Origin: Herbiconiux gentiana
Lineage (GTDB): Bacteria; Actinomycetota; Actinomycetes; Actinomycetales; Microbacteriaceae
Direction: 5' to 3'
NCBI RefSeq assembly: GCF_024978135.1
Contig: NZ_JANTEZ010000001.1
Span: forward strand, 620,001 to 684,000
Length of the DNA stretch: 64,000 nt
Below, in pieces: positions 43,833 through 62,897 of the stretch (the first letter of the stretch is position 1; every line of letters starts with the position of its first letter). Made by a program: the position numbers and the translations under genes. Below the pieces are notes generated by a model. The model had not been told where the DNA came from and ran no database searches. It saw nothing but the letters and a program-made list of their open reading frames with translations.

Positions 43833-44530
43833 AATGCCGCGGCAGCAGAGCCACCGCGGCGGGAGCGATCTCGCTCGCGGTGCTCGTCTGCTCATCGTGC
43901 ACCAGCACGGTGGCCCCTACCCCGCGCGACTTGGCCGCTGAGCTCGCGAAACTCGAAGTCGCACTTCTGTGCGTCCGCGCCCTGCCGCTCTACGACGACG
44001 TCTACCACGAGGCCTCTATGAGAGGAACGATCTGCGTCGACAGCGCTGGATCGATCACTCAGATCCGAGTCTTCGACTCACGGACCGCCAGCTTGGTGGC
44101 CCTTCAGGACTGGGCCATCGACCCCGACAACCAATGGCTCGTGCAGAACAGCAACTGGTTCGCGATCGGACCACGCCAGACTGTCGAAGATGTCGCCATC
44201 CAAGCCGAGGTCACGCTGTCACCGACGCAGGTGATCCCAGAGCTTCCCGGCGACTACGCCCCGAACCCGATCGACGAATGCGTGCAGTTCGTGAGCAGCA
44301 CCGCGTACACCTACCTCTCCGATGCTCAGATGTTCACTTCCGACCGAGCTGCGCTCGAAGACGTGGCCCCTGCTGTGACTACTGAGGTCGAAGCGTTGAT
44401 CCAGCGGCCAGAATCGGCGCGACTCCGCTCACTGGCTCCCGACGATCTGGCGTTCGAGTCCGAGTTCTCGCGCCTGGGCCCTGACGTGAAGGCGTTCTGC
44501 CGAGACTCCTCGACCTCCGCCCCGAACTGA
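43823..44530 (+). CDS. Putative lipoprotein, unknown
   Basis: 235 residues from a TTG at 43823 (another TTG at 43829 overlaps the upstream stop). A signal ends at VLVCSSC, a workable but not ideal lipobox. The mature part has helical and mixed segments with GTICVDSAGSITQIRVFD, ECVQFVSSTAYTYL and DVKAFCRDSS. The family was not recognised. Its 3' half and downstream flank are duplicated, in decayed form, at 47120-47568, on the far side of the Septu-like module. Confidence 0.65.
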   Translation: MALKCRGSRATAAGAISLAVLVCSSCTSTVAPTPRDLAAELAKLEVALLCVRALPLYDDVYHEASMRGTICVDSAGSITQIRVFDSRTASLVALQDWAIDPDNQWLVQNSNWFAIGPRQTVEDVAIQAEVTLSPTQVIPELPGDYAPNPIDECVQFVSSTAYTYLSDAQMFTSDRAALEDVAPAVTTEVEALIQRPESARLRSLAPDDLAFESEFSRLGPDVKAFCRDSSTSAPN

Positions 44531-44626
44531 ACGGAACGCTCTTACCCCCCGCGCCTGCAGCGCGCCAGATCTTCAGCACGGGCCTCGTGCTCAACGACCG
44601 GTGCCGCCCTGGCCTTGGTCACCGAC
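44181..44626 (+). repeat. Direct repeat, left copy (lipoprotein 3' half plus flank)
   Basis: This segment matches 47120-47568 along its length with many substitutions and small indels. Exact shared words include GACGTGAAGGCGTTCTGCCG and CGGTGCCGCC, and the order is kept from GCCATC to TTGGTCACCGAC/CTGGTCACCGAC. The left copy keeps an open lipoprotein frame. Confidence 0.75.
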
Positions 44627-44980: not shown

Positions 44981-46303
44981 ATGGCGCAACCAGGCGATTG
45001 GCACGTTGATAGCTTGACGTTGCAAAACTTCAGATGCTTTGAATCCCTAACGATCGATTTTCACCCCTCATTGTCTGTCTTGGTCGGGATCAATGGAGCC
45101 GGGAAGACGGCCATCCTAGACTCAATTGCGATCATGCTTTCGACGGTTCTTCGAGAGTTCTCGGGACCGACGCGAGGCTTCACGTTAGACGACGCAAGGG
45201 AGGTCGCACACGACCTCGACTCTCGAGCTGGCGTAGCCCGCATGGAGCGGTCATTTCCAGTCTCAGCAAAGATTGAGGGGACGCTGGGGGGGGAGGGCGC
45301 ATGGTGGCGGCGGGTTCGACAGACCGCCGGTGGCCGAACCTCGTGGTCAGATCGAAATACTCATGTTGGGCAACGCGCGGCTGAGATTTGGTCCAGCTCT
45401 GCCAATAGAGACCGCGAAACCCTCTTGCCAGTCATCGCCTTGTACGGAGTCGAAAGACTTCTCAGCGTTCGCAGGGCAGCAGGAACTATCCAGAAATCAC
45501 GTTCAGGTGCATACGATTCTGCACTTGACGGTCGGTCGGATCTTTCCCGCCTGTCTAGCTACATAAAAGCCCTGACTTTGGCTGAATTTGTTGCTGACCG
45601 CCGTGGGCAGGACGCAGAAGCGGCCAGCAGTCAGCTGGCGGCTATCACCCTCGCGAGCGACACTATTTTGAGCGGGACCGGATGGCACTCCCCAGAATGG
45701 AGTCCTATCGTGGAGGAGCTGACATTCAGCCACAACGCTCACGGGACCTTGCCTCTCTCATATTTATCCAGCGGCATCAAGATCGCCGCGGGCCTGGTTA
45801 TTGACTTGGTGAGCCGGATCGCTCGAGCTAATCCGGGCATCGGCGCTCATGATCTTCTGCAGGCAGCCCCTGGTGTCGTTCTGATCGACGAGATCGACTT
45901 GCATCTCCACCCGCTGTGGCAACAGCGAATTCTCCCGCAACTGAGAAAGACCTTTCCGCGAGTCCAGTTCATCGTGACCACACACAGTCCGCAGGTGTTG
46001 TCAACGGTCGAAGCTGAAAGCATCAGAATAGTTGACGGCAACGTCGTGCGGCTTGTCGACTATTCGGCCGGGCTTAGGAGCGACGTGATCATGGATCGGA
46101 TTCTCGGCACCCGCCCCGAGCCGAACCTTGAGGTGAATGAACAACTCGATCGATATGTCTCGTTGGTAAACGCCGGCAATGGCCTTACTCCTGAGGCCCA
46201 CCGACTGCGGGAGTTGCTGGATGACGAGCTGGGAGGGATCGCAAATGTACCGAAGCTCGCGGACGCCGATGCAGAAATATCCTTCTACGACCTGGACGAC
46301 TGA
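44981..46303 (+). CDS. ptuA: Septu-like ATPase (PtuA-type, OLD/SMC-like ABC ATPase)
   Basis: 440 residues. The N-terminus reads LTLQNFRCFESLTIDF with Walker A GINGAGKTAILDSIAIML. The signature region is LSYLSSGIKIAAGLV, Walker B VVLIDEIDLHLHPLW and the switch histidine VTTHSPQVLSTV. This is the short AAA_21-type ATPase found with HNH nucleases in Septu and retron-linked systems. The stop shares one base with the HNH gene (TGATG). The GC content is far lower than in neighbouring chromosomal genes, a sign of transfer. It is named by analogy; the pair should sense phage infection and activate the nuclease. Confidence 0.82.
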   Translation: MAQPGDWHVDSLTLQNFRCFESLTIDFHPSLSVLVGINGAGKTAILDSIAIMLSTVLREFSGPTRGFTLDDAREVAHDLDSRAGVARMERSFPVSAKIEGTLGGEGAWWRRVRQTAGGRTSWSDRNTHVGQRAAEIWSSSANRDRETLLPVIALYGVERLLSVRRAAGTIQKSRSGAYDSALDGRSDLSRLSSYIKALTLAEFVADRRGQDAEAASSQLAAITLASDTILSGTGWHSPEWSPIVEELTFSHNAHGTLPLSYLSSGIKIAAGLVIDLVSRIARANPGIGAHDLLQAAPGVVLIDEIDLHLHPLWQQRILPQLRKTFPRVQFIVTTHSPQVLSTVEAESIRIVDGNVVRLVDYSAGLRSDVIMDRILGTRPEPNLEVNEQLDRYVSLVNAGNGLTPEAHRLRELLDDELGGIANVPKLADADAEISFYDLDD

Positions 46304-46989
46304 TGCAGCGAATCAAGTTCGTCTCGCCGCCCCAGAGCTATGTAAAGCTGCGCAGTGAGGGAGCTGATTTTTCTCAGTTGTCGTCCGACACGGCGATCCG
46401 CCGCGCATTGTGGGAGCAACAGTCTCGCCGATGCGCATACTGCGAACGCCGGCTGAAGGATCCGTCGAAACCCGACCACCGGACCAGGATTGAACATTTC
46501 CATCCTCAAAGCAGTGATCTATGGGACGGGGATTGCGAAGAGGCAAGCGGAACGGTGAAGCAGGACAAAGCACCGACGAGCTGGAAGAACCTTCTCCTCT
46601 GTTGCGACGGGAATGAGCGTGCCGGGGCGTCGTATTGCTGTGACAAGTCAAAGGCGGGGCGCGAAATCTGTGCGGTGTTCCGAAATCCGAAGTCCTGGCC
46701 GCTTCCCGCGCTTGTCAACGTGGACCGAGCTGGATATGCAACGGTAGCGCTAGGCCTTCCCCATACGGCTGACGCCGTCATAAAAGAGACACTGAACCTA
46801 AATGCGGATCATCTAGTTTCTGCCAGGAAGGCAGTTCTCGCCGCTCGTATTCAACAAATTGAGCAGCAGCGCAGGAAGCATCGTGGCCTGACGCATGCGA
46901 TGCGTATAGAGATCATCGGAAGGCTCCGTAAGGATGCAGAATCTGCCGAATTCGGAGCAGTCCTTCTATCCATTGCCGATCGTCTGTAA
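46303..46989 (+). CDS. ptuB: Septu-like HNH endonuclease (PtuB-type, TIGR02646-like)
   Basis: 228 residues. The HNH/zinc core is CAYCERRL, then RIEHFHPQS, then WKNLLLCCDGNE and YCCDKSK, as in PtuB and retron HNH effectors. The head VSPPQSYVKL also follows this family. The C-terminal half is helical, with a Gln/Arg-rich stretch. It overlaps the ATPase stop by one base. The nuclease is expected to cut nucleic acid when the ATPase partner detects infection. The AAA/HNH pair alone, with no reverse transcriptase nearby, matches Septu rather than a retron. Confidence 0.85.
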   Translation: MQRIKFVSPPQSYVKLRSEGADFSQLSSDTAIRRALWEQQSRRCAYCERRLKDPSKPDHRTRIEHFHPQSSDLWDGDCEEASGTVKQDKAPTSWKNLLLCCDGNERAGASYCCDKSKAGREICAVFRNPKSWPLPALVNVDRAGYATVALGLPHTADAVIKETLNLNADHLVSARKAVLAARIQQIEQQRRKHRGLTHAMRIEIIGRLRKDAESAEFGAVLLSIADRL

Positions 46990-47119: not shown

Positions 47120-47465
47120 ATGCTGAACATTCGCCATCAAGGCCGGGCGGCGCCAATACCGACGCAAGTAGCTCCAGACCTTTCCGAAGGCTACTCCCCG
47201 AACCTTGGACGAACGCGCGCAGTTCGTGCGCAGAATCGTCTAAATCACTTTACCGACGCGCGTGTGTCCGGCTCCGACATAACTGCACTCGGAGACGTGA
47301 CCCTTGTGTGACAACTGAGCTCGAAGCGTTGACTCAAGCGGCTGGTATCAGCAGAACTCCGCTCGCCTGACTTATGACAACGTTGCGTCCGATCCAGTCG
47401 TTCGCGCTTGGGCCCGGACGTGAAGGCGTTCTGCCGAGGCTCTACGACCGCTGCCCCGAACAAAA
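47120..47465 (+). pseudogene. Decayed lipoprotein paralog fragment
   Basis: The sequence aligns with the 3' half of the lipoprotein gene at 43823-44530 but has stops and frame changes. Near its end the parental frame is readable as GPDVKAFCRGSTTAAPN, matching GPDVKAFCRDSSTSAPN, and here AAA replaces the stop codon. No 5' half, signal peptide or start was found before it. Bases 46990-47119, between the HNH gene and this fragment, hold nothing I recognise. Confidence 0.6.
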
Positions 47466-47568
47466 CGGAACGCCCATACCCCCGCGCCTGGCAGCTCGCC
47501 AGGTCTTCATCACGGGCTCGTGCTCACAACGATCGGTGCCGCCTGGCCCTGGTCACCGACGGAGTGGC
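47120..47568 (+). repeat. Direct repeat, right copy (decayed)
   Basis: Diverged second copy of 44181-44626, in the same orientation. It starts near GAACATTCGCCATCAAGG and ends near CCCTGGTCACCGAC. The two copies bracket the Septu-like genes. Confidence 0.75.
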
Positions 47569-48244: not shown

Positions 48245-48634
48245 ATGTCGGACTACGAGAAGGTCTGCCTGATCCGAGGCGACCAGGGCCGAGCCATCCG
48301 CGCCCTGCTCGACCGCGTCGCCGACAAGTGGTCCCTACTCGTGATCGCCACTCTCCACGACACCCGCCTGCGCTTCACCGACCTCCAGCGCACCGTCCCG
48401 GGCATCTCCCAACGGATGCTCACCCGCACCCTCGGCCACCTCGCCGAAGACGGCCTCGTGACCCGCACCTCCTACCCCGAGGTGCCGCCCCGGGTCGAGT
48501 ACGAGCTCACCCCGAAGGCCCTCACCCTGCTCCCCCACGCGATCGCCCTCGCCGACTGGGCGGTGCAGAACATCGACGCCGCCTCGGCAGAAGCCGGCGA
48601 CGAGGATCACATCCACCGCGGTCCCGTCCTCTGA
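48245..48634 (+). CDS. HxlR-family transcriptional regulator
   Basis: 129 residues with the HxlR winged helix: ALLDRVADKWSLLVIATL, RFTDLQRTVPGISQRMLTR and LAEDGLVTRTSYPEVPPRVE. A cysteine at residue 8 is in the position used for redox or aldehyde sensing in some members. AAGGGG precedes the ATG. It is divergent from the DoxX-like gene and probably represses it. Confidence 0.92.
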   Translation: MSDYEKVCLIRGDQGRAIRALLDRVADKWSLLVIATLHDTRLRFTDLQRTVPGISQRMLTRTLGHLAEDGLVTRTSYPEVPPRVEYELTPKALTLLPHAIALADWAVQNIDAASAEAGDEDHIHRGPVL

Positions 48635-48658
48635 GAAGGTGAGTAGCTCGACGAATAA

Positions 48659-48951
48659 GACCAGCAGAGCCGCGCACGCGTCGTCTTAGTCACGCAGACT
48701 CGCGAAGAACAGCACGACGTGAAGTCTTGGGCGATGGGCGAGGCACCGCTTGAGTATGCGGCGGATGTGGTGCGCGTGATCCGGACTATGTTGGCTCGGT
48801 GATCTCCTTCAGCTAACAACTCCTCTACGCCGAGACCTGGCTGACCACGGATCTGATCGCGCGACTCGAGGGCCGGGAGAGCAGTGTCACGCTGCTCTCG
48901 ACTCCGACCTTCAAGCAACCGACTAGCGCTCCATCGAAGACTTTCAAGTAA
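48659..48951 (+). pseudogene. Decayed coding remnants in two frames
   Basis: Bases 48659-48802 read without stop as SRARVVLVTQTREEQHDVKS with EYAADVVRVIRTML. Bases 48817-48951 read in another frame as LLYAETWLTTDLIARLEGRE. Neither has a start codon with a ribosome site, yet both have natural amino-acid content. They look like pieces of one broken gene. The family was not recognised. Together they account for most of the 364-base gap between the HxlR gene and the next gene. Confidence 0.35.
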
Positions 48952-48998
48952 TCGCTCGCGATCGGAGACCTGAATAGCCCGTGCTGTGACCGGAAGGC

Positions 48999-50306
48999 TC
49001 AGACGGCCCGCGCTGGAAACACCACCAGCGAGCCATCTCGGTGACGCTCGATGTCGATCGCCACATCAGACTCCGAACCGGAGAGGCTGACATCGTCACC
49101 GAATGCACGAAGGCGGTAGGAGACCTGCAGTAGTTCGTCAACTTCGCCGCCGGTGAACATCGGGCTCCTGAAACCGCCCGGGCGCTTCAGCTCGAGGGTT
49201 GACAGTTGGAGAAGAAGCGACGTGATCCCGGAGGTCAGTTCGTTGAGCCGACACTCGTCGTCGTGCAGGGTGCGCACGAAGGTTTCGAAAAGATGGTCGG
49301 CGCCCTCGAGTTGGGCGTGCTCGACCGCCTGCAGGATCATCACGCGGCGCTTCAGGGCGATGGCCAGCTGAGCGAGCTCGAGGTGCGCGCGGAACTCGCC
49401 ACCTTCTTTGTTTATGCCGGGGAACGTCTTTGTGAGCACCGAAACCTCGATCGGACCGTCAGGGACCGCCGCAATTGCCTGCTGCCACTTATTGAGGCGT
49501 CGCCTGGTGCGCTCGATGGCGATGCTGATGGCGTGCACTGCTGAGTCAAGACCGAGGGACATGCCGATTCGCCCCTTGTCGAGGAGGATCGAGGTCGCCT
49601 TGTCGACGGGGTCCCGGCAACCGTCGAGCTCGTTCCGCTCTTCGTCGAGCTTGTCCTCGTGCAGTTTCTCGAGCAGCTCGGTGATGTGCTCAATCGCCTT
49701 CTGGCGCTCCTGCTCGACGTAAATAGTGATACCCACCGCCACCGCCATGAGCACGAGCGGAGCCGCGACGGTCAGCGCGGCTCCCACCGTGACGGCTCCG
49801 GCGGTCGCGGCGCCGGCGGCGGCTACTCCCGAGACCGCCGCCTTGCCTCCGACCGGAACGAACGCTGCGCCTGCAACGATGCCGGACGAATCCGTGAGCG
49901 CGCTTCGGATGCCGCCCGCCACACCCTTCGCCACCATCGGCTTCACCAGCCCCTTGCCGAACTCCGCAGCGAACTTCGCCGGGACAACCATTCGGTAGAG
50001 GACTTCCCCAGTAGCCCCGACTTCAACGGCCCCCGACGCCGACTTCGAGGTCTGGGCGACGAGCTGCGACAGCTGCTGCGCCAACGGACTCGCCCCGTGA
50101 AGCGGCAGTCCTCCGGTTCGGTCGAGTCGCGCCGACACCGGATGCGCTTCCAGGGTTGCGATCGGAGCGGCCGCCAGCGCAGCCAGGGCAGTCCGCAACT
50201 CCCCGAGCCGGCCCGGCGTCATGACATCCTGGCCGAGAATGTCCGGAACGACGATCTCCTGCGTCGCGAGTGCCCACACCGGGACATTCTGGCTGGTATC
50301 CGTCAT
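48999..50306 (-). CDS. Membrane and coiled-coil protein next to the R-M-like operon
   Basis: 435 residues from the ATG at 50306, with GAGAGG about eight bases upstream. The first 140 residues are soluble. A long Ala/Gly/Val-rich hydrophobic region follows at about 150-225 (ASGVAAAGAATAGAVTVGAA-like, then VAAPLVLMAVAVGITIYV). The rest is charged and helical, with coiled-coil character (ITELLEKLHEDKLDEERNEL). The family was not recognised. The layout resembles membrane-inserting effectors. It lies 261 bases downstream of the AIPR gene on the same strand and could be its last gene or a separate one. Confidence 0.6.
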   Translation of the reverse strand: MTDTSQNVPVWALATQEIVVPDILGQDVMTPGRLGELRTALAALAAAPIATLEAHPVSARLDRTGGLPLHGASPLAQQLSQLVAQTSKSASGAVEVGATGEVLYRMVVPAKFAAEFGKGLVKPMVAKGVAGGIRSALTDSSGIVAGAAFVPVGGKAAVSGVAAAGAATAGAVTVGAALTVAAPLVLMAVAVGITIYVEQERQKAIEHITELLEKLHEDKLDEERNELDGCRDPVDKATSILLDKGRIGMSLGLDSAVHAISIAIERTRRRLNKWQQAIAAVPDGPIEVSVLTKTFPGINKEGGEFRAHLELAQLAIALKRRVMILQAVEHAQLEGADHLFETFVRTLHDDECRLNELTSGITSLLLQLSTLELKRPGGFRSPMFTGGEVDELLQVSYRLRAFGDDVSLSGSESDVAIDIERHRDGSLVVFPARAV

Positions 50307-50567
50307 GTGTAGATCCTCTCGAAGGTCCCTCTCACAATAGGCCGTGCCTCGGACGTCGGGAGCCACCTATGGGCCGCAGGCTGAGGAGAATCGATGGTCA
50401 CCTCGGGGAAAGCTCGGCCTTTGCGGCTCATCCGCCGCCTGTCCTTCCTGGGAACCTCCAGAAGACCGCACACGGCGCATCCACGACCATCTCACTCCAA
50501 GGCCACTCGGCCCACCTTCAGGGCTGGATGCCCCCGGTCGCCTCGTTGACCGTCACTGGAAACGACC

Positions 50568-52634
50568 TCAGTACGCGTCGTGCGATATGAGCGCGTTTTC
50601 TGCGCTGCGTTCCAGTGCGAGCAGGGCTCGCGCCGCCTGTCTCTCAGTCGGCACGGTCCCTGGAACCGCAATTCGCTCGATGATGCCCCGCTCGGTGGGA
50701 CTGATGAGCCCACCCCGAACACCCTCGCGTAGCACCGTCGACCAGACGTCAGGCTTCACCTTAAGGACGCGACCGATGGCCTCGAACCCGGAATCCACTT
50801 GTCGCTCCCTGCGCGCGGCCACCTGCGCGGTCTTCTCGTCTGATCGCGAGACCAGGTCTACCTCGATCCCTCGCGGCAGCACGAACGGAGAGTCCTTTGC
50901 TGAATCCCAGCACGCAACCTGTTTGGCCCATTGGGTGACGTTGGACTGAGGGCGTCCCGGATCAGTCAGCACCTTTTGCATGAGATTGGCGATCTCCAGC
51001 AGCACTTCTTCGGTCTCGGCGCTGAGGGACTGCCGGTTCCACACTGCATCGAAGTCGAACCGACTGCTGGGGAACTGCGCCTCGATCTCGAAGGCGAACT
51101 TGGACATCGCGTATGCCACGATGTTGGCGAGATAGCCCGTGCCATACCAGGGCGACTTCATGACTGCAGCGCGGAGCTGATTGAACATGATCACCTTGGC
51201 CACGTTCGTGCGGAAGTACGCGTCATTGATGGCCTGATCGTTGTTGTCCCAGATAGCGTCCGCCTCGACCGCGTACGCCATGAAGTTGCTCTGAGCACCT
51301 TTGCTCACGTCGTGGGGCCGCTTCCCCCAAGCGAACGCGTACTTCGCCCAGTCCGTCTTCATGATCTTCTGGCTCTTCGGGAACTCGAGATCGAACCGCT
51401 TTTGCTCCGAGGCTGTTCGCGCATTGCGGGTGTTCTCATACTGCCCTCGCGTTCGTTCGTAGAACCAACCTGTCCCGAATTGCATCCCTTCGAGCGCAGG
51501 CGCCTTGAGTCGGAGACTGATCTGCTCCAGGCGCACGTGGAATGGGCTGTTCGAGAAGAAGTCTGCTTCGCTGACCTTGTTCTGGCTGTTGGCGAACCGG
51601 GAGACCTTCGACACGAGATCCGCAGCTTGATCGGGTTCCACAGTCACGAGCTTCATCTGCACGAAGACGCCATCAAGAGAACGATCCTTGGCCTGTCTCA
51701 TGAAGTACGCGAGCGATGACGTTGTCTGCCCTCCGTTCACGATCTGCCAGTTGTCGATAGCGGTGATGAACGCTGCGCCACCCCGTCTCTCCAGTGTCAC
51801 TCCCGTCGCCGTCGTGGTGAGCCCATTGTTGTACGCGAGGAACATGTCGGGCTCCTGCGCCAGGGTGTACTGGATGCCCTTATTGACCTTTCCACGAGCG
51901 CTCAGGAAGGTCCGCACGTTCGACTCCAGGAGTTGGCTCCCGTACTCCCTGAACACATCTGCCAGCAGACGCCCTGGTAGAACCGCGAGGTAGCTCCGCG
52001 CGTGCTGGCCGCTCTCCGCGCCTTCCAGGCACGGCAGTCCGTCCGGTAGCCACGTGGTCAAGTCGACGTGGATGTCATCTCGGCCACTGTCCGAATTCGC
52101 GAGCTCTTCGAATCGACGAAGATCCCAGATTGAGTAGGACGCTGGCTTTCCTGCCACTTCATCACTTGGGATCGCCTTGATTGTGCTGCTCATCGTGGCG
52201 TCCGTGATCAAGATGAACTTGATGCGCTCGAAACGGGAGAAATGCTTCTTGAAGTAGATCGAATACTCTGCTTCCTTCGAACTGATCTCGAGATTGTCTC
52301 CAAGCCAACCGTCAGCCGACTGCTCGAGGAACCCCGCACCTGCGCCAAAGACGCGCTTCGCCTCCGTCATGTTGAGGACAGCCCCAGGGGAATCGAAGTA
52401 TGAACCCACAAGGATCACCAGTGAGTCATCTGCGGGATCCTCCGCATACCCGAGCAGCTCGAGGTTACGTCGGTTGCGACCCGTGCAACGCAACGATTCG
52501 ACCGAGACGTCGAAGACCACTTCCGCAACCTCGAGCCTCTCAGCCAGCTCCTCAGCGAACGCCTGGATCCGGAAGCTCGAGGAGCCTTCAGCCCGGATGG
52601 CGATGCTGTCTCTGAGATCATCTTCGAATGACAT
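50568..52634 (-). CDS. AIPR-family protein (abortive infection phage resistance)
   Basis: 688 residues. The AIPR core is clear at about residues 240-330: SNVRTFLSARGKVNKGI, FLAYNNGLTTTATG, WQIVNGGQTTSSLAYFM and KVSRFANSQNKVSEADFFS. The N-terminal 200 residues resemble the nuclease-like head found in these proteins. AIPR proteins were first linked to lactococcal phage resistance, and they co-occur with Z1 and MORC-like genes in restriction systems. It starts 17 bases after the PD-(D/E)XK gene, so it is part of that operon. A biochemical role has not been settled for the family. Confidence 0.88.
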   Translation of the reverse strand: MSFEDDLRDSIAIRAEGSSSFRIQAFAEELAERLEVAEVVFDVSVESLRCTGRNRRNLELLGYAEDPADDSLVILVGSYFDSPGAVLNMTEAKRVFGAGAGFLEQSADGWLGDNLEISSKEAEYSIYFKKHFSRFERIKFILITDATMSSTIKAIPSDEVAGKPASYSIWDLRRFEELANSDSGRDDIHVDLTTWLPDGLPCLEGAESGQHARSYLAVLPGRLLADVFREYGSQLLESNVRTFLSARGKVNKGIQYTLAQEPDMFLAYNNGLTTTATGVTLERRGGAAFITAIDNWQIVNGGQTTSSLAYFMRQAKDRSLDGVFVQMKLVTVEPDQAADLVSKVSRFANSQNKVSEADFFSNSPFHVRLEQISLRLKAPALEGMQFGTGWFYERTRGQYENTRNARTASEQKRFDLEFPKSQKIMKTDWAKYAFAWGKRPHDVSKGAQSNFMAYAVEADAIWDNNDQAINDAYFRTNVAKVIMFNQLRAAVMKSPWYGTGYLANIVAYAMSKFAFEIEAQFPSSRFDFDAVWNRQSLSAETEEVLLEIANLMQKVLTDPGRPQSNVTQWAKQVACWDSAKDSPFVLPRGIEVDLVSRSDEKTAQVAARRERQVDSGFEAIGRVLKVKPDVWSTVLREGVRGGLISPTERGIIERIAVPGTVPTERQAARALLALERSAENALISHDAY

Positions 52635-52651
52635 CTATCCCCCTGTGACGC

Positions 52652-53596
52652 TCAGTTGAGTTTCAGAGTCGCCGCGAACGGTTCGAGTTCGCTGACGTTC
52701 AAGTGGTACGTGACCGCGGTAATCCCCTTGGGCACGGATGACGACTCGATTCGCGGAAAGTTCGAGGTCACATCGAAGGCGAGAGTGTCTCCGAGGACGA
52801 ACCACCACGGTTCATAGAAGGGGTCGCTGACATCGAACCCGATGGTGTCGAGCGCGACCGCCCAGAGCTTCCGAGCGGGCGGGCGGTGATCGATGAATGC
52901 TTCGATCGATGCCACCACATCGAGCAGTGACCGAGCTTGAGGAGATGCTGGCTGGGCCCGTTCCAGCGGCACAACGGCCAGCTGAAGCGTCACATTGGGT
53001 GCTTCCAATTGCTGCAAGCTGGAGATCGTGACGTGCATGGTGGGGCGACGCGCGGACTTCACTTCAACACAGTGCCCAGACGGGAAGATGAAGTCCTTGC
53101 TGTTCCCGAACGGCCCGTTCCAGGATCGCAAGGCACTTTCCGGGTCCTCCCCGGGTTCCAGGATCGACTCCAGGATCAGCAACTCCGCCATTAGACCCCG
53201 GATGGCATCCTCGCCGAGTGCTCGTCGGGGTCTCGAGAGGAACTCTCTGAACTCTTCCAGAGCGTCGTAGAAAGCGCTTACGCTGGAATCGAAGTCCAGC
53301 GCCCGCGAGCTCTGCTCCAGTAGGTGCCTCGTCAGCGCAGCGAATGCAGGCGACACCTCGGCCTCGTAGGATGCGATGCGGATGAAGTGAGGTAGCGCGG
53401 CGTTCCCGGAGCCGATCTCGACGGAGAAACCTTTTCCGCCGTCGATGAAGTAGCCCGGCGGGTGCGGCAGCTCCACCACCAGCGCAGGCTTTCCAGCGAG
53501 ATTCTGAGCGAGCACGTTCAACCACGGATGAGTGAGCTTGATGACCTGGTTGGCGCCCTGGCCGAGCACCGCGACAAGTGCCTCGTCAGAATTCAC
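52652..53596 (-). CDS. PD-(D/E)XK motif protein (DUF4420)
   Basis: 314 residues. The nuclease-like core reads GLMAELLILESIL, then SWNGPFGNSKDFIFPSG and CVEVKSARRP, giving the E, D and ExK residues of a PD-(D/E)XK fold. DUF4420 proteins are found with Z1 and GHKL ATPases in restriction-like operons. The start overlaps the Z1 gene stop (ATGA), and the AIPR gene follows after 17 bases. It is the likely DNA-cutting subunit of the system, although a structural role is possible. Confidence 0.87.
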   Translation of the reverse strand: MNSDEALVAVLGQGANQVIKLTHPWLNVLAQNLAGKPALVVELPHPPGYFIDGGKGFSVEIGSGNAALPHFIRIASYEAEVSPAFAALTRHLLEQSSRALDFDSSVSAFYDALEEFREFLSRPRRALGEDAIRGLMAELLILESILEPGEDPESALRSWNGPFGNSKDFIFPSGHCVEVKSARRPTMHVTISSLQQLEAPNVTLQLAVVPLERAQPASPQARSLLDVVASIEAFIDHRPPARKLWAVALDTIGFDVSDPFYEPWWFVLGDTLAFDVTSNFPRIESSSVPKGITAVTYHLNVSELEPFAATLKLN

Positions 53597-56334
53597 TGGT
53601 CGTCCTCATCTTCGTTGTCCTCTTCGGTCACAGGCAGTCCGAGGTTCGCTCGCACGAAGACCTTATTCGCCACGAAACGCGTGGGTTTGGTTTGCATGAT
53701 CGTGGCCTCGACGTCCAGGGGCAGTGCCGGAAACGCCACAAGTACGGCAATCAGGGGATCATCGCTACCAATAGCCAACGTCGGTGGCTTTCGGGAGTCC
53801 GGAGTCGTGACGAGCGCGAAAACGAGCAGGAGGGGCCTGACCACAAGATTTCTGATCAGTGCTGTCTCAGCCAGCTTCTCTCCCTCTTTCAACCCGACCT
53901 CCAGTTCCGTCACCAGGTCTCGAGGTAAGGAGTTTTTGAGGTCGTTGCCCGCTGCGACTCTTCGGTTTCCGAGTGCCACCTGGGTAGGAGCGCGGGGTTC
54001 CATACGGTTTCGAACACTGCTCTTGAACTCGAGAGACCTCGAAAGCGTGACTACGTCACTTGATCCGCTCACGAACCCCACGTCCCACTCATCGCTGTTC
54101 TGCGCGTCCGAGAGGTACGCCGCAAGTTGCGCGTGTCTGCCCGTGGTGCCTGCCCCGAAGTAGATGTCGGAATCGTGACCGCGAAACCCCATGAAGAATC
54201 TGTGCACGAGATCCGCGGGGACACCCACCCACACGTTCTTGTTCTCACGATCATCCGCGGCTGCGCCGATGGCCGTCACCTCGTCTGCAAGTGCCCTGGC
54301 CGCGTCCAAGTTTCGTTTCCTATCGCTTGGTTTGATCGAAAGGGAGTGCGACTCGAATCGCGCACCATGGATGTTTACGTCCCCCTGCACCTCAACCCCA
54401 TGCTGGCGCTTGTTCGCTGCTGTGATCATGAAGGCTTCGGGGTGCCGCTGCATCTTCAGACCGAATTGGCTGGGCGTCATGTCGAGTGCGTTCATCTGCT
54501 TCAGTGAACTTCGCAAATCCTCCGACACCTCCGCCACGTACTTGAAGAGATCCACGACGTCGGGGTCCATCCATACACGCACCAGATCGCCGTAACCGGG
54601 TCGATAGCCGAACCATCGACCCATCTGCAGCAGAGTGTCCGCGGCCCCGGCTCGGCGCACGAAATAACTCACCTGAAGGCCGTCCAGGGTCAGTCCTCGC
54701 GCAAGCACATCTCCGCCCACGAAGATCTTTGGTTGCAGGTCCTCCTTCGTCCGCTCGTCTCTCGACAGCTCATTCATCCGCTTGTTCCGCGCGGACATCG
54801 TCCTGCTGTTCACGAGTTCGACTCGCACCTCAGGTGCGGAGGTAAGCAGCTCGGTGCGAACTGACTGCCATGCAACTTCAGTCGAGTACTCGCGTTCGAA
54901 CGCTTCCCGAAGCCTTGTGGCCTCCGGGCTTTCACCGGTTGTCGAACCGGATAGTCCGAATTCAGAGAGGATGGCGCGTCTGAACTCATCCACGGCGTCG
55001 GCGACTAGGTCTGCGACTTGTTCTTGAACGTCGTTGAACCTTGAGATGTTCACCATCATCGATGCGGGCTTGGCCTCGCCACCTCGAATCCGTCTGATTG
55101 CAGTGCCGACGAAGAAAGTCGCCATGGCATCCAGCAGACTTTCAGGAAGTTCGTCGAGGCGGGCGGTTCGCCTGTGGTTGAAGGGAAGGACGGCCAAGCA
55201 ATCATTGACTTCCGTGCGAATCGGCCCGCCGGAGTTCGCAGTCTCACCGAAGAAGCGCTCAATGCCGTGATAGTTCGACGGGCTTTCGAGGGCCTGAATG
55301 TAGTCGCGCGGGAACAGATCCTCTTCAAGCTCGTCATCGATGAGGATGTTGGCGAATGGGGTAGCCGTGATTCCAAGATAGGAGTTCCGCCGCGACGACC
55401 CCAGCAGTCTCCTGATCGCTTTGTTAACTGCGGCGACATTGTCCTCTGACTTTGTATTCACAGACGCCCAGTCGGCCTCATCGTCGATTACCACCAGTGG
55501 ATCGGAAAGTCGTCCGTTCTTGCCCTGGCTGGTCAAGTAGGTCGTGAGGTTGGAAAGCACCTTTGCGTTCTTTTTTATGACGAAAACGTTCGGAGTAGAT
55601 TCACCAGCAATGGCGACGACGCCCGCTCGCTGGCTTGCGGCACCGAAGTCAGTTCGAGTTGTTGTGCGGACGTGAGTTCCGAACGACGTATTCTTGCCCA
55701 CTCCTACGCGCGTCCGGTGTGACGTCTCGGACACGTTTTCGAGGATGTAGGAGGAGTCGATCCCAGTTAGATCCGTGTCGATGCGCCGTTGCGTCTGCCG
55801 ACGCAGATCTTCCGTGTGCCCGCCAATGACGACGATAATCTTGTAGCCGTAGTCGATCGCCTTGTTCAGTATGCCCACGTACGTTGCTGTCTTCCCTGAC
55901 TGCACCTCCCCGATAGCGAGCCCGCGCCGGCTCCACTCGCCTCCCTTCAACGGATCCCCCATCAGTTCGACGATTTTGTCCGTCTGTGCGTCGAGTTTGG
56001 AGATCACGTTCGGGCCCCACTCCCGGTTAACTAGGAGTTGACGATAGGCATCCCACCGCGGAAGCTCCGCGTTGGGTTTGCGTTCCGCCAGCCATGGCTC
56101 AAATGTTCGGTTGTCGACGACGCCGTCGCCAATATCGAGCACGACCCTGCGCATCTCCGTTATGCGTCCTACTACATCGTCAACATCCGCCTTCGTGAGG
56201 GACTTGGCCAGGATCGCGGCCAGTCCACGCGCATTAGCCTCCAGGTCCTCGAAGGTGATGGCCTCTTCGTTCAGGATTAGGCCATTGAGGAGATCGAGCA
56301 GTTTCTTCTTCTCGGCTTCTACGACTGATGTCAT
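53593..56334 (-). CDS. Z1-domain helicase-like ATPase
   Basis: 913 residues from the ATG at 56334, which overlaps the upstream stop (ATGA) and has GAGGGGGAC before it. Walker A is GEVQSGKTATYVGI near residue 145, followed by IIVVIGGHTEDLRRQT, and the Walker B-like VVIDDEADWASVNT. The Z1 hallmark region follows: SSRRNSYLGITATPFANILI and GGDVLARGLTLDGLQVSYFV, with YFVRRAGAADTLLQMGRWFG. This is a superfamily 2-like motor typical of MORC-linked restriction systems. It probably moves along DNA for the nuclease partner. Confidence 0.9.
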   Translation of the reverse strand: MTSVVEAEKKKLLDLLNGLILNEEAITFEDLEANARGLAAILAKSLTKADVDDVVGRITEMRRVVLDIGDGVVDNRTFEPWLAERKPNAELPRWDAYRQLLVNREWGPNVISKLDAQTDKIVELMGDPLKGGEWSRRGLAIGEVQSGKTATYVGILNKAIDYGYKIIVVIGGHTEDLRRQTQRRIDTDLTGIDSSYILENVSETSHRTRVGVGKNTSFGTHVRTTTRTDFGAASQRAGVVAIAGESTPNVFVIKKNAKVLSNLTTYLTSQGKNGRLSDPLVVIDDEADWASVNTKSEDNVAAVNKAIRRLLGSSRRNSYLGITATPFANILIDDELEEDLFPRDYIQALESPSNYHGIERFFGETANSGGPIRTEVNDCLAVLPFNHRRTARLDELPESLLDAMATFFVGTAIRRIRGGEAKPASMMVNISRFNDVQEQVADLVADAVDEFRRAILSEFGLSGSTTGESPEATRLREAFEREYSTEVAWQSVRTELLTSAPEVRVELVNSRTMSARNKRMNELSRDERTKEDLQPKIFVGGDVLARGLTLDGLQVSYFVRRAGAADTLLQMGRWFGYRPGYGDLVRVWMDPDVVDLFKYVAEVSEDLRSSLKQMNALDMTPSQFGLKMQRHPEAFMITAANKRQHGVEVQGDVNIHGARFESHSLSIKPSDRKRNLDAARALADEVTAIGAAADDRENKNVWVGVPADLVHRFFMGFRGHDSDIYFGAGTTGRHAQLAAYLSDAQNSDEWDVGFVSGSSDVVTLSRSLEFKSSVRNRMEPRAPTQVALGNRRVAAGNDLKNSLPRDLVTELEVGLKEGEKLAETALIRNLVVRPLLLVFALVTTPDSRKPPTLAIGSDDPLIAVLVAFPALPLDVEATIMQTKPTRFVANKVFVRANLGLPVTEEDNEDEDDQ

Positions 56335-57797
56335 TTGTCCCCCTCGGTCCATACGAGCCCGACGAGCTCGCCAAGATTGTCAACGCGATCGAATGGCTCG
56401 GCTGATCGCAGCATCTGGGTCATCTGCTCAGGAGTGCTCCTACCCAGAGTGCCCATCGAACGGAGGCTGCGAAGTCGCGTGAGGATCTCCTCCTCATCTG
56501 CGCTGGGGCGGACGCTCGGCGCGCGCTTGGACGCTTCGACGTAGAGGTCTCCAGTCGGAAACGACTGCGAGAGGTCAGTCAGAAGGCGCCTGAACTGAGC
56601 CCGGCCCTCCTCTCTCACAGAATCCGCCACGGCGGAGACGACTGGGTGTTCAGGGTTGATCTCGTACCGATAGCCGTCCCTATCAGAGATTTTGTTCCAC
56701 AGGCGAACCACGTTCTGGTCGCTCTCGCGCCTCCCTCGGAACGTATGCACGCGCTTGCTCTTGCCGATCACCTGGTCCATCACCCGCTTGAAATGAACCC
56801 GGAAGGCCTGGGGCGGCTCGGCTCGGGATTTCTTGATGTCGAGTTGCCACAGATGATCCACGGTGTTCGGTATGTCCACGCGGACCCTGGACTGCTTGGA
56901 CAGTTCCTCTCGACGCGCAAGACCGTACCAATGGCCGTAAGAGATTAATCGTTTGTTCCGGTAGATGTAGAAGCCCTGGCGCTCACGCATCCCGTTCCCG
57001 AGATCCCACCGGTCGCGTTCGCTCTTCGAGAGTGCTGAATGATGGGGCAGTGTGAAGGCCTGGAACTCGATGCGCTGACCACCGATGCTCAGCGGCTCTA
57101 CCGGCGACGTCTGCGTCCTGGAGTTGGTCGAGAGGAAAGGATCGAGCGCTTTGACTGGAACGCCGTTTACGAGGATCCTGAGCGGCTTGCGTGTGCCATC
57201 GTCCAGAAAGCGGTGAAAGGTCAGAGAAAGGTGATCCCTGAGGTCTTCCAGCCGTTCCGCCATGACCTGATCCGGTCGCGCCGCAGCACCCAACAAGTAG
57301 TCGAGTTCCTGCCAGACAACCAGCGTTCCGCACTCCCGCTCGAGGAGAGCGTTCGCGTTCGGCAACGTCGAGCAGTCCCTTTCGTTCAGGACCATCAACG
57401 ACCACTCGCCGGTCTGGCGAACGTGATCGATGTCCCATCGGAGCCCAGTGACGACGCCGTCCCGTTTCGTGAGCACTGTGAGCTGGCGCGCCTGGGAGAG
57501 CGAGGCGGTCTTGAGACCGAGGCCGAACCGCCCGAGGTCGCCGCTGGACCTCATGCTGTCTCGGGCGCTTCCAGCCAGTTGCAGAGCCGCACGAGCACCG
57601 TCTGCGCTCATACCGAGACCGTCGTCCAGAAGACTCACGTAGCGAGATTCGACTGGGTCTCCGATGATCTCGATCTGACGCGCTTCGGCGGTGATGCTGT
57701 TGTCCACGAGATCCGCGATTGCGGCGTGAAAGGAGTAGCCGACCGAACGCATGGAATCAAGTAGTTCCACCCCCGGAACCAAGATCTCGTCCTGCAC
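56331..57797 (-). CDS. GHKL ATPase, MORC/MutL-like
   Basis: 488 residues. The N-box is AAIADLVDNSITA, motif II is LLDDGLGMSADG and motif III is GRFGLGLKTASLSQA, the three ATP-lid motifs of GHKL ATPases. A transducer-like region and a linking FYIYRNKRLISYGHWYGL follow, as in bacterial MORC homologs. Family knowledge places such proteins in restriction operons with Z1, DUF4420, Vsr and a cytosine methylase. It is the first minus-strand gene of the operon, divergent from the methyltransferase. ATP-driven dimer clamping on DNA is the expected role. Confidence 0.9.
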   Translation of the reverse strand: MQDEILVPGVELLDSMRSVGYSFHAAIADLVDNSITAEARQIEIIGDPVESRYVSLLDDGLGMSADGARAALQLAGSARDSMRSSGDLGRFGLGLKTASLSQARQLTVLTKRDGVVTGLRWDIDHVRQTGEWSLMVLNERDCSTLPNANALLERECGTLVVWQELDYLLGAAARPDQVMAERLEDLRDHLSLTFHRFLDDGTRKPLRILVNGVPVKALDPFLSTNSRTQTSPVEPLSIGGQRIEFQAFTLPHHSALSKSERDRWDLGNGMRERQGFYIYRNKRLISYGHWYGLARREELSKQSRVRVDIPNTVDHLWQLDIKKSRAEPPQAFRVHFKRVMDQVIGKSKRVHTFRGRRESDQNVVRLWNKISDRDGYRYEINPEHPVVSAVADSVREEGRAQFRRLLTDLSQSFPTGDLYVEASKRAPSVRPSADEEEILTRLRSLRSMGTLGRSTPEQMTQMLRSAEPFDRVDNLGELVGLVWTEGDK

Positions 57798-58052
57798 AGA
57801 AAGCCCCCTCGACTAATGCACTCACAGCCTAGAGGCAGTCACTGACATCAACTGATCGCAGTATACGGTTGTCGATCTAGATGGCTGATTAACGAGGTTC
57901 CGGATGGCCCCGAGGTCCGTGAAGGTTGCGGCGGGGGTCCGACGGCGTGGGCGGGAGAAGCGATATGCTGCTTGTCTACGACCGGCGAGATCCGATGTCG
58001 GAGGGCCGACTGATACTTGGTCCGATCGTGTTTCGTCTGTGAGGGGCAATTC

Positions 58053-59153
58053 GTGGAATTCCAAATGGGAGAGCTCTTCTGCGGGCCTGGGGGAATGGCG
58101 CTCGGAGCGCACAGAGCTGCTGCTGAGATTGAATCCCTGGTTCTGCGCCATGCCTGGGCGAATGACTACGACAGAGACACGGTCGCGACGTACCGATCGA
58201 ACATCCCCGGCGCTACATCCGCTTCAGTGATCGAACAAGACGTCCGCACCCTGAACATCGCTGGTCTCAGCCCGGTGAACGGGTTCGCTTTCGGCTTTCC
58301 GTGCAACGACTTCAGCTCGGTCGGTGATCGCAAGGGCATGACGGGCACATTCGGCCCGCTCTATAAGTACGGGGTGAATGTCCTCGACCAGTTTTCGCCT
58401 GACTGGTTCGTCGCTGAGAACGTCGGCGGTCTCCGCAGCTCGAATGATGGCAGAGCCTTCAAGCAGATCCTCGCCGAGCTGGAAGAGGCTGGGGACCACG
58501 ACGGTTATGTGCTGACCCCGCATCTCTATCGTTTCGAACAGTACGGCCTTCCCCAGAAGCGTCACCGGATCCTCATCGTGGGCGTCAGACGGGACCTCGA
58601 TGTGAAGTTCCGTGTGCCTTCCACGAGGCCGTACGCGGACATTGACAATTCGGTGGGGCATCGTCTCGAAGGTGAGCCAATCGGCCCTCACGTCAAGCAC
58701 AACGAGCGGGCACGCCAGGCATCCCAGGTCATCGAACGACTTCTGCATATCAAGCCTGGGGAGAATGCCTTCACCGCGACGTTGCCGGACCACCTCCGTC
58801 TGAACATCTCCGGGGCAACGATCAGCCAGATCTACCGACGCTTGGAGCGCGACAAGCCGTCTTACACGGTGACCGGTTCCGGCGGCGGAGGAACACACGT
58901 GTATCACTGGGACGAACCGCGGGCCCTGACCAATCGCGAGCGGGCTCGACTTCAGACGTTCCCAGATACCTTCGACTTCGTAGGAGGTCGGGACAGTGTG
59001 CGCAAGCAGATCGGCATGGCAGTGCCGGTCGAAGGTGCGCAGGTGGTCTTCTCAGCGCTCTTCAAGTCGTTCGCGGGCATCGACTATGACGTCACGAGCT
59101 GCAACATGCGCGAGTTCGCTACCCAGCGCAGCTTCGCTCGGCGGGGGTTGTAG
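58053..59153 (+). CDS. DNA (cytosine-5) methyltransferase, Dcm-like
   Basis: 366 residues from a GTG at 58053 with GAGGGG six bases upstream; an ATG at 58065 and a longer TTG frame are alternatives. Motif I is ELFCGPGGMALG, motif IV FGFPCNDFSS (PCN in place of the common PCQ), motif VI VAENVGGL, motif VIII QKRHRILIVG, and the late RERARLQTFPDTF with IGMAVPV as motifs IX-X. It should methylate cytosine at C5 in a short target, protecting host DNA from the divergent operon. The target sequence cannot be read. Confidence 0.92.
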   Translation: MEFQMGELFCGPGGMALGAHRAAAEIESLVLRHAWANDYDRDTVATYRSNIPGATSASVIEQDVRTLNIAGLSPVNGFAFGFPCNDFSSVGDRKGMTGTFGPLYKYGVNVLDQFSPDWFVAENVGGLRSSNDGRAFKQILAELEEAGDHDGYVLTPHLYRFEQYGLPQKRHRILIVGVRRDLDVKFRVPSTRPYADIDNSVGHRLEGEPIGPHVKHNERARQASQVIERLLHIKPGENAFTATLPDHLRLNISGATISQIYRRLERDKPSYTVTGSGGGGTHVYHWDEPRALTNRERARLQTFPDTFDFVGGRDSVRKQIGMAVPVEGAQVVFSALFKSFAGIDYDVTSCNMREFATQRSFARRGL

Positions 59154-59182
59154 CGACCCCGAGATCGCTTCAGAGTTGTCCT

Positions 59183-59626
59183 ATGGCACCGTCGAGCGCA
59201 TCATGGGCGTCGTCGCCCGGCGCACTGGCGACCATGAAGGCGAACATACGCAGGGACACCAAGCCAGAGCTTGAGATGCGAAGGCGTCTGCACGCCCTTG
59301 GGTACCGCTATCGCGTGGACCACCCGCTGAAGGAGACCCCCCGGCGCCGTGCCGATCTGGTGTTCACCCGGTTGAAGCTGGCGATATTCGTGGACGGGTG
59401 CTTCTGGCACGGCTGCCCTAAACACTACATATCTCCCCGTGCGAATTCGGACTACTGGATTCAGAAAGTCGAACGGAACAGAGCGAGGGACGCGGATACG
59501 ACTGCGAGGCTCACTGAGGCCGGATGGCGGGTCTTACGCATCTGGGAGCACGTTCCAGTGGAGGAGGGCGTCTCGATGGTTGAGGCCACGATCGAGAGCC
59601 TCCGCGCCGGGCAGCCGATCCGTTAG
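59183..59626 (+). CDS. vsr: Very short patch repair endonuclease (Vsr)
   Basis: 147 residues. Core motifs are RRDTKPELEMRRRLHALGYR, RRRADLVFTRLKLAIFVDGC, FWHGCPKH and RDADTTARLTEAGWRVLRIW, all typical of Vsr. These nick at T:G mismatches that arise when 5-methylcytosine deaminates. Vsr genes commonly accompany cytosine methylases, and this one follows the methylase by 29 bases. Vsr-like nucleases in MORC/Z1 loci may also serve as restriction subunits. Confidence 0.92.
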   Translation: MAPSSASWASSPGALATMKANIRRDTKPELEMRRRLHALGYRYRVDHPLKETPRRRADLVFTRLKLAIFVDGCFWHGCPKHYISPRANSDYWIQKVERNRARDADTTARLTEAGWRVLRIWEHVPVEEGVSMVEATIESLRAGQPIR

Positions 59627-59659
59627 GGGCCGTTCTGCGATCGCAGCGGACCTTGGGAA

Positions 59660-59674
59660 CGGGCCGCCGGCCCG
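59660..59674. terminator. GC hairpin between convergent genes
   Basis: CGGGCC (59660-59665) pairs perfectly with GGCCCG (59669-59674) around a three-base loop. It lies 34 bases after the vsr stop and 26 bases before the end of the next minus-strand gene, so it may end both transcripts. No U-run follows. Confidence 0.4.
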
Positions 59675-59699
59675 ATTCAAGTCGCGTAGTTCTCCGTGG

Positions 59700-59939
59700 T
59701 TAGTTGGTCAGTTCAGGGAATGCCAGCCGGATCACGTCGATGAGTCGCGCAGCCGAGCGCTTGTCCAGCTGCAAGGACTGACTGCTCTTGGGGCCAGAAA
59801 CACGTTCGTCCGAACCGAACGTCGAGAGATGCAGAATCGAGCCCTGCTCAGACTGGATGATCTGGAACGAGCAGTCCACCTCAGTTGGATGTTCGCGCAC
59901 ATTCTGCGTGCCCTCGCTGATGGATCTGATCCGTGCCAT
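59700..59939 (-). CDS. Small conserved protein of R-M loci, unknown
   Basis: 79 residues: MARIRSISEGTQNVREHPTE, then CSFQIIQSEQGSILHLSTFG and QSLQLDKRSAARLIDVIRLA. This compact beta-then-helix protein resembles a small family seen often near actinobacterial methylase genes and sometimes misnamed methionyl-tRNA formyltransferase. Its role is unknown. It converges on vsr, with the GC hairpin between them. Confidence 0.65.
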   Translation of the reverse strand: MARIRSISEGTQNVREHPTEVDCSFQIIQSEQGSILHLSTFGSDERVSGPKSSQSLQLDKRSAARLIDVIRLAFPELTN

Positions 59940-60149
59940 CCAGTCCCCCGATGTCGATGATGATGCGTCAGACTCTAACGCACCACCAGTTCAGACACAG
60001 AGGGTCATTGGCTCTGCGCACGCCCGCTGACGAGACTTCTGCATCTTTGACCCGCCGACAGGAGTTGCACCTGCACGGCCGCAATCACACGCGCAAACGG
60101 CGGCGTATTGCGCGTCAGGCCGGCGCCGCGAACGCATGAACAGGCACTC

Positions 60150-60527
60150 TCAGTAGAGCTCTGCGTCGGTGGTATTCGCCTTCAACCAGAGCTCATCGGC
60201 ACAGTCCTCCGAGCAGGCTTTCCATGGCAATATTCGAAGCGCCTTGGGAACGCGGATTCCGCAGTTCCGGCAACGGCGCAGTTTGTTGCCGTACCGCAGA
60301 CCAGAGAGGCGGAAAACGGATTCGTCTTTCTTGACGTCGCACGCGCCGAGTGTGGTCCCGGGCAAGTCCGCCCCCTGGACCTTCGGCTCGAGTTCATTCA
60401 CCCAATGTGAGAGCAGACGGATAAGGACTTCCTCCGCGCACAACGCTTGTTCCCACGCCCTATTCTCGAACGCCTCTGCGAGATCTGCGGGGACGAGAAC
60501 CGAGACAAAAGCCGATGCAGGTGTCAT
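60150..60527 (-). CDS. Ribbon-helix-helix-like protein with a zinc ribbon
   Basis: 125 residues from the ATG at 60527. The head FVSVLVPADLAEAF, then LCAEEVLIRLLSHWV has the strand-helix-helix pattern of ribbon-helix-helix DNA-binding proteins. The tail has CRNCGIRVPKAL and CSEDCADELW, a likely C2-C2 zinc site. The family was not recognised. It is divergent from a second ribbon-helix-helix gene across a 74-base gap. The 210 bases between it and the preceding minus-strand gene hold no supported feature. Confidence 0.55.
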   Translation of the reverse strand: MTPASAFVSVLVPADLAEAFENRAWEQALCAEEVLIRLLSHWVNELEPKVQGADLPGTTLGACDVKKDESVFRLSGLRYGNKLRRCRNCGIRVPKALRILPWKACSEDCADELWLKANTTDAELY

Positions 60528-60764: not shown

Positions 60765-62543
60765 CTAACCGGACACAAATTGGCGCAAATGCTCCCGCAA
60801 CGCTGGGTCGTGGACGTAGATATAGGTGCCACGAATGCCTCGGGTGAGCAGCACCGCGTAGACGTTCTGGATGTACCAGAGCAGGTCGTCGTCGGAGTAG
60901 ACGCGGCCGAGCGCCTTGTTGGCCTCCTTGCCCTTCTTGTCTAAGTACGAGGCGCGGTCGACGATGATGCGGCCGGTGATCGTGTCGAGGCGGAGGTCGG
61001 GGCCGATGATCACGCCGGCGTAGTTGAGGTCGTAGCCCTGCACCGTGTGGATCGAGCCCACCTCGTCGAGCGAACCCGGCGACGCGATCCAGTCGGTCTG
61101 GGTGCTGTTCCAGCGCATCCGCAGCTCGCCGATCTCGATGTCGTGAGCCATCTTGTCGCCCTTTGACTTCCACTCCCAGGCGTAACCCGCAATTAAGCGT
61201 GACAGGCCGACCTCGCGGTTACGGCGCATGATCTCCGCGCGCATCTCGGAGACGTCGTCGAACATGCGGAAGTCGTAGTCGCCGAAGTCGGGGACCCCCG
61301 TAGACGCCGGCGCATCCGAGCTGTCGGCAGCGCCGAGCATCAGTCGAATGTGACCGACGTAATCAGAGCCCGCCCGCACACGCATCTGCGAGAGGAGCGG
61401 ATGGTGGTGGTCGGCCGCCGTCGCATTCGCGACCAGTTGCTGGAGGATCTCGACGGGGATGTCGGCCGGCTTCACGCTCTGCGCCGGGTCGACCAGGAAG
61501 ATCTGGTGGGTGCTTCTGGCCTTGATCCAATCGAGCTGGTTCTTCGATTTGTCGTCGTGGCCGAAGAGCTTTGTCGTGATGTCGCGGAACTTCGCGTTGA
61601 GAGTCGCCGCCGGCTGATTCGCGCGCTGATTCAGGCGGTGCGTCTCGTCGACGATAAGCAGGTCGAAGTCAGTGGCCGACTCCCCCACTTCGAACGCCGT
61701 CAGCACCATCGATGGGTCGAGACCAGGGGTCTTGCGAAAGACCTTCTGCACCGATTTGCGGAGCGACTGCTGCGGGATGACGAAGCCGATGCGGAGGTTG
61801 CGGAGGAGCATCCGGTGATCGTCGGTGAAGAACTCGGAGAAGAGGGAGTCGCCGTCGTCGTCGAGGGCGTCGAGGGGTGTGGATGCGCGGATGTCGGCGA
61901 GGAGCTTGAGCAGGTAGATCGCGACGACGGTCTTGCCGGTGCCGGGGTCGCCCTGGATGACCGTGGTGCTGCGGTCGTTGCTGCGCAGATCGTCGAAGAG
62001 GCTCTTCACGACGCCCTCGACCGCGAAGGCCTGGTCGTCGGTGAGTGACTTGAAGGGGCTCAGCTTGAAGAGGTCGCTGTTGATGATCTCGGGGATGGTG
62101 CGGGTGAAGACGCCGTCGAGCTTCAGACGGTCGAAGATGGCGTCGAAGCTGTCTTGGTAGAAGGCGCGGTTGTAGTATTCGGCGTTGACGATGCCGTCGT
62201 TGCGATTGAGCACCTCGAAGGCGCCGACGCCGCTGAGCATCTCGATGAGGAACGACTCGAGGTCGAGGCAGACGGACTTGTTGAAGGTCTCGTCGAGGAT
62301 GACGCGGAGGTTGGTGAGGTGGCTGCGCTCGATGCTCGCGAGGTGTTGGCGCATGCGGGTGGCTACGTTGAGGGATTCGCCGACGTAGATCTTGCGGCGA
62401 TCGGATGCCCGGCCCGCGCCGGTCGTGTCGTCGTCGAGGATGTAGACGACCGGCCAGTTGGTGATGCGCTTGTCGCCGCTTCGCGCCCAGACGCCGACCT
62501 CGTCCTTATCGAACGGGAGGCGAACGATCTCAGAGCTGGTCAT
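60765..62543 (-). CDS. GIY-YIG nuclease/DUF2075 helicase fusion
   Basis: 592 residues. The first 100 are a GIY-YIG-type nuclease domain: PVVYILDDD, KIYVGESLNVATRMRQHL and a later conserved Glu in LDLESFLIEML. The rest is DUF2075, a superfamily 1 helicase-like ATPase with GDPGTGKTVVAIYLLKLL, LLIVDETHRLNQRANQ and a late GSIHTVQGYDLNYAGVIIGP. The fusion is known in many bacteria and suspected to be in defence or DNA processing. It overlaps the start of MazG by 14 bases, so the two are co-expressed. Confidence 0.9.
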   Translation of the reverse strand: MTSSEIVRLPFDKDEVGVWARSGDKRITNWPVVYILDDDTTGAGRASDRRKIYVGESLNVATRMRQHLASIERSHLTNLRVILDETFNKSVCLDLESFLIEMLSGVGAFEVLNRNDGIVNAEYYNRAFYQDSFDAIFDRLKLDGVFTRTIPEIINSDLFKLSPFKSLTDDQAFAVEGVVKSLFDDLRSNDRSTTVIQGDPGTGKTVVAIYLLKLLADIRASTPLDALDDDGDSLFSEFFTDDHRMLLRNLRIGFVIPQQSLRKSVQKVFRKTPGLDPSMVLTAFEVGESATDFDLLIVDETHRLNQRANQPAATLNAKFRDITTKLFGHDDKSKNQLDWIKARSTHQIFLVDPAQSVKPADIPVEILQQLVANATAADHHHPLLSQMRVRAGSDYVGHIRLMLGAADSSDAPASTGVPDFGDYDFRMFDDVSEMRAEIMRRNREVGLSRLIAGYAWEWKSKGDKMAHDIEIGELRMRWNSTQTDWIASPGSLDEVGSIHTVQGYDLNYAGVIIGPDLRLDTITGRIIVDRASYLDKKGKEANKALGRVYSDDDLLWYIQNVYAVLLTRGIRGTYIYVHDPALREHLRQFVSG

Positions 62544-62853
62544 ACTTCGTGGACGTGCCGCGGGACTTCTCGATGGGGTACTTCTCGCGGGTCTTCGCGA
62601 GCTTGGCGCGGACGATGTCGTCGGGGTTCAGCTCGAGGCGGGCCGCGAGGAGGTAGGCGTAGGTGAGCACGTCGGCGAGCTCGTCTTGGATCTGCTGCTC
62701 ATCCGCATCCGGTGACCACTGGAAGAGCTCGAGCAGCTCGGCTGCCTCGATGGAGATGCTCTTCGCGAGGTTCTCGGGGGTGTGGAATTGGGCCCAGTCG
62801 CGCTCGGCCACGAAGGCGGCCAGGGCTTCGTGGATGGAGGGATCGGCGGGCAT
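62530..62853 (-). CDS. MazG-like nucleotide pyrophosphohydrolase
   Basis: 107 residues from the ATG at 62853: ENLAKSISIEAAELLELFQW and IQDELADVLTYAYLLAARL. The E-x-x-E and E-x-x-D pairs bind magnesium in the all-alpha NTP pyrophosphatase family. It should hydrolyse NTPs or dNTPs to monophosphates. It overlaps the helicase gene by 14 bases. MazG-like genes commonly travel with the GIY-YIG/DUF2075 gene, which suggests nucleotide depletion or modified-nucleotide removal. Confidence 0.9.
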   Translation of the reverse strand: MPADPSIHEALAAFVAERDWAQFHTPENLAKSISIEAAELLELFQWSPDADEQQIQDELADVLTYAYLLAARLELNPDDIVRAKLAKTREKYPIEKSRGTSTKYDQL

Positions 62854-62897
62854 GTGGTCAGGGTAGCAGCGGGACTTCGCCACTCCGGGGCCGGCCC

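Follow-up and report, generated by a model that had tools for sequence, protein, structure and literature searches.

A MORC-type ATPase locus of Herbiconiux gentiana as an intact copy of a predicted restriction system

The mzaABCDE system, whose source is reportedly Gao et al. 2020, offers a close comparison for a six-gene locus of the actinomycete Herbiconiux gentiana, located in a window (the whole stretch of DNA analysed) of 64,000 nucleotides (contig NZ_JANTEZ010000001.1, positions 620,001 to 684,000), the numbering of which is used below. The available part of PMC9523054 calls mzaABCDE validated; homologues of MzaB to MzaE lie here in the same order, without MzaA and with a C5-cytosine DNA methyltransferase (methylase) and a Vsr endonuclease, and their NCBIfam scores remain below the equivalog cut-offs (289 against 850, 374 against 1500, 74.5 against 420, and 308 against 1050 bits). 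The third MORC operon type of Iyer 2008 (PMC2292703), as far as the consulted sections describe it, has the same MORC protein, a superfamily 2 helicase with a DThhQXuRhFG motif, and a restriction endonuclease (RE)-fold gene with an E-D-ExK pattern, and in it methylases and Vsr are frequent, as here; in those sections, AIPR is mentioned nowhere but in a figure legend, which calls it common in many restriction operons. Here, methylase and Vsr diverge from the core, unlike in Miller 2022 Type II. That type has an associated gene, outside its core set, for a putative transcriptional regulator, whereas by eye none was noticed beside the core here among open reading frames of at least 90 aa in 48999-59626, with shorter frames left aside and most unnamed ones seen without profile search. 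The CglI and NgoAVII restriction-modification systems, in the portion of PMC4267653 available, are three-gene systems without MORC, DUF4420 or AIPR, whose nuclease combines PLD and B3 domains; when the genes of the locus were scanned with Pfam, no PLD nuclease with a B3 domain was matched.

Judging from its genes, the locus is probably an intact copy of a predicted restriction system against foreign DNA, belonging to a family that is widespread, being present in many phyla, and experimentally little studied. The core comprises four tightly joined genes on the minus strand. The first encodes a MORC-type GHKL ATPase of 488 aa (56331-57797) with a HATPase_c_3 domain (Pfam, 2.8e-30), and it matches the MzaB profile of PADLOC with 244 bits. 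By eye, the S5 motif is present in QGFYIYRNKRLI, where GFYIYRNKRLI agrees with the GhXhhpXXRhl pattern that, in the sections of PMC2292703 at hand, marks MORC rather than paraMORC; Asp29 stands in place of the conserved Glu in 92 of 93 aligned rows, with a gap in the remaining one. The Z1 helicase (53593-56352) carries the C-terminal DThhQXuRhFG motif, and the MzaD-like PD-(D/E)XK nuclease (314 aa, 52652-53596; DUF4420, 1e-41) matches the E-D-ExK pattern through E138, D168 and E178xK180, each of these four residues being kept in 88 of 88 rows. The MzaE-like AIPR protein (688 aa, 50568-52634) matches AIPR (1.5e-88) and AIPR_N (4e-23). Divergently from the core, on the plus strand, lie the methylase (58017-59153, likely ATG at 58065; PF00145, 1.7e-64, PC and ENV motifs present) and the Vsr-type very-short-patch-repair endonuclease (59183-59626; Pfam Vsr, 6e-16; TIGR00632, 125.4 bits, above the cut-off of 97.85). 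The intergenic region (57798-58016) is, by its position, the presumed site of both promoters; a sigma-70 consensus scan of 48600-60200 gave no site, against 2.2 expected in shuffled sequences.

The gene set proposed by the sequence-only reading (a MORC/Z1/DUF4420/AIPR core with methylase and Vsr) is confirmed. All six frames are open and their motifs intact, which makes it quite improbable that the locus is decayed or silent and hitch-hikes in a defence island, even though the GC content around it is low (0.58-0.64 beyond 44 kb, versus 0.66-0.74 before) and a relative on a Devosia plasmid is split into several frames. The methylase and Vsr are the sole matches to PF00145 and PF03852, respectively, in their genome. 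Because the copy is compact and intact and no other C5 methylase or Vsr is matched in the genome, it would be a clean test object for a family that represents a prokaryotic setting of MORC ATPases. Its mechanism had also been said to be little described, which agrees with the open-access literature searched, where no worked-out mechanism was found.

In the restriction-modification reading, the methylase would protect host DNA from the nuclease of its own locus. A methylase lies within 4 kb of the core in 73 of 80 related loci (48 of 51 among those with full context), and PADLOC found no type II endonuclease beside methylase or Vsr in 19 outer neighbours, one of which is a piece of a methylase gene (20 were sampled from the 49 loci with a gene beyond methylase or Vsr, using mechanical gene calls). 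Several points weigh against this reading. The place of the methylase varies among loci, before or after the core and on either strand, and its distances agree with those of the core only loosely (Spearman 0.31-0.38, versus 0.59-0.73 within the core), and both are also compatible with a methylase that is only loosely attached and not the core's own partner. The Prevotella methylase is listed as an orphan, with no cutting in the available part of that account. On a Neorhizobium plasmid (L154), where the locus bears MzaA, a type II endonuclease is annotated right beside methylase and Vsr, so the core there may need no methylase of its own. A second MzaA-bearing locus, on a Thalassospira plasmid (L023), has the core followed by an endonuclease and a methylase; PADLOC classes this endonuclease as methyl-directed, so the two may not be partners. 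The name AIPR itself stands for abortive infection phage resistance. Given the frequent proximity to the core and the lack of partner endonucleases in the sample, we nevertheless regard a merely loose attachment as unlikely.

The four-gene machine may have a second mode, in which MzaA takes the place of the methylase, a possibility that rests on one clear case; with two MzaA loci seen in detail, one of them having the methyl-directed label, no such division into modes is claimed. In the window, no MzaA sigma-like protein lies beside the core. The MzaA profile has two matches in the genome, which are likely ordinary sigma factors, as they span no more than positions 428-669 of its 683, and 10 of 14 control genomes have matches to it as well.

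A candidate specificity subunit that follows the methylase was sought and dropped, as neither distance correlations nor windowed partial correlations stood out clearly from noise: among about 90 windows the highest value was 0.178, and the maximum in 300 permutations of that single window was 0.158. In one locus with a swapped methylase (L049), the C-terminal part of AIPR has diverged together with the methylase, and parts of the MORC protein have done so less, yet the corresponding AIPR stretch, at about residues 500-650 of the window's protein, gave mixed values (-0.08 to +0.13) over 75 loci and was rejected as well. Among related loci, the methylase is on the core's strand both in a Microbacteriaceae bacterium (L034) and on a Pseudarthrobacter phenanthrenivorans plasmid (L022), the latter having no Vsr found; neither has a relative of the membrane gene discussed next.

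Directly after the AIPR gene, on the same strand, lies a gene for a 435-aa membrane/coiled-coil protein (48999-50306), which the sequence-only reading had taken as a possible abortive step added to the restriction step. It seems to belong to the same inserted stretch, as homology to one same-genus genome stops at window 48912, just past its stop codon. However, a relative was found in none of 80 genome and none of 12 plasmid loci, and the core genes are present in none of 10 stretches around its relatives. The gap to the AIPR gene is 261 nt, unlike the tight joins of the core. The earlier interpretation is partly supported: the restriction system is probable, and the abortive step is highly improbable for lack of linkage. 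The membrane gene is apparently a neighbour unrelated to the system and no suicide step built into it; it is rejected as a system component, and its linkage at one locus should not be taken as a second, abortive step. The protein matched no PADLOC or NCBIfam family at E <= 0.01, had a best E of 0.24 against the PDB (phmmer) and no relatives in two viral-contig scans; a single-sequence fold model (pLDDT 38.6) was unusable. Elsewhere, a C5 methylase adjoins a HATPase_c_3 protein (L014:2394-5254) at a distance of about 4 kb from one of the membrane gene's relatives, and the three plasmid relatives also lie near restriction genes, perhaps by chance.

The AIPR protein was modelled with AlphaFold2 from 66 sequences (mean pLDDT 89.7, pTM 0.58), giving an N-terminal part in which helices and strands are mixed, a likewise mixed centre, in which NNG and NxQN are invariant and NGGQTT nearly so, and a mostly helical C-terminus. 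Foldseek gave no significant match in the PDB (best AF1548, E 0.13, prob 0.85); those to Can2 and McrC, which we take to be PD-(D/E)XK nucleases, were weaker still, and by eye no (D/E)xK motif is visible in the AIPR_N consensus. A match to a viral ParB-like structure had prob 0.96 at an E of 0.28. Against GmrSD_N, the centre scored 22.5, at the FxxxN end, which none of 200 column shuffles reached (maximum 21.1), whereas 27 and 35 of 200 shuffles reached the scores of the N- and C-terminal parts. One protein taken for DUF262 by eye aligns to AIPR (QIVNGGQTT / QIVDGQQRL, E 0.018, probability 2.5%). Since the HH probabilities are 1-4% (unrelated controls, E 0.32 and 0.48), kinship of the centre with a GmrSD_N/DndB-like ParB/Srx domain is no more than a lead. 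The sections seen of PMC4619093 describe GmrS as a ParB/Srx fold with DGQQR and FxxxN motifs, and PMC3506569, in its accessible part, already assigns the N-terminus of DndB to the AIPR family, so published work partly implies the ParB link. The same part describes an AIPR type with an all-helical HEPN toxin domain at the N-terminus; here, residues 22-170 are modelled as mixed helix/strand and the protein has a Pfam match to AIPR_N, which speaks against HEPN.

The surroundings hold further genes. A PtuA/PtuB-like (Septu-type) pair lies at 44981-46989 on the plus strand, flanked by direct repeats of 116 nt (44468-44583 and 47402-47517, 83%), and a same-genus genome is without about 2.9 kb at this site. 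At 60765-62883 (minus strand), within the low-GC stretch of the locus, a protein with GIY-YIG, just under the Pfam cut-off, and a Schlafen-group-3 helicase overlaps a MazG-like gene. Just right of the window, a protein that by eye, without profile search, resembles a RhuM/Fic fusion (L148:726-1688) probably lies close to where the island ends on the right, and DNA common to a same-genus genome returns at about window coordinate 65904, in a different order.
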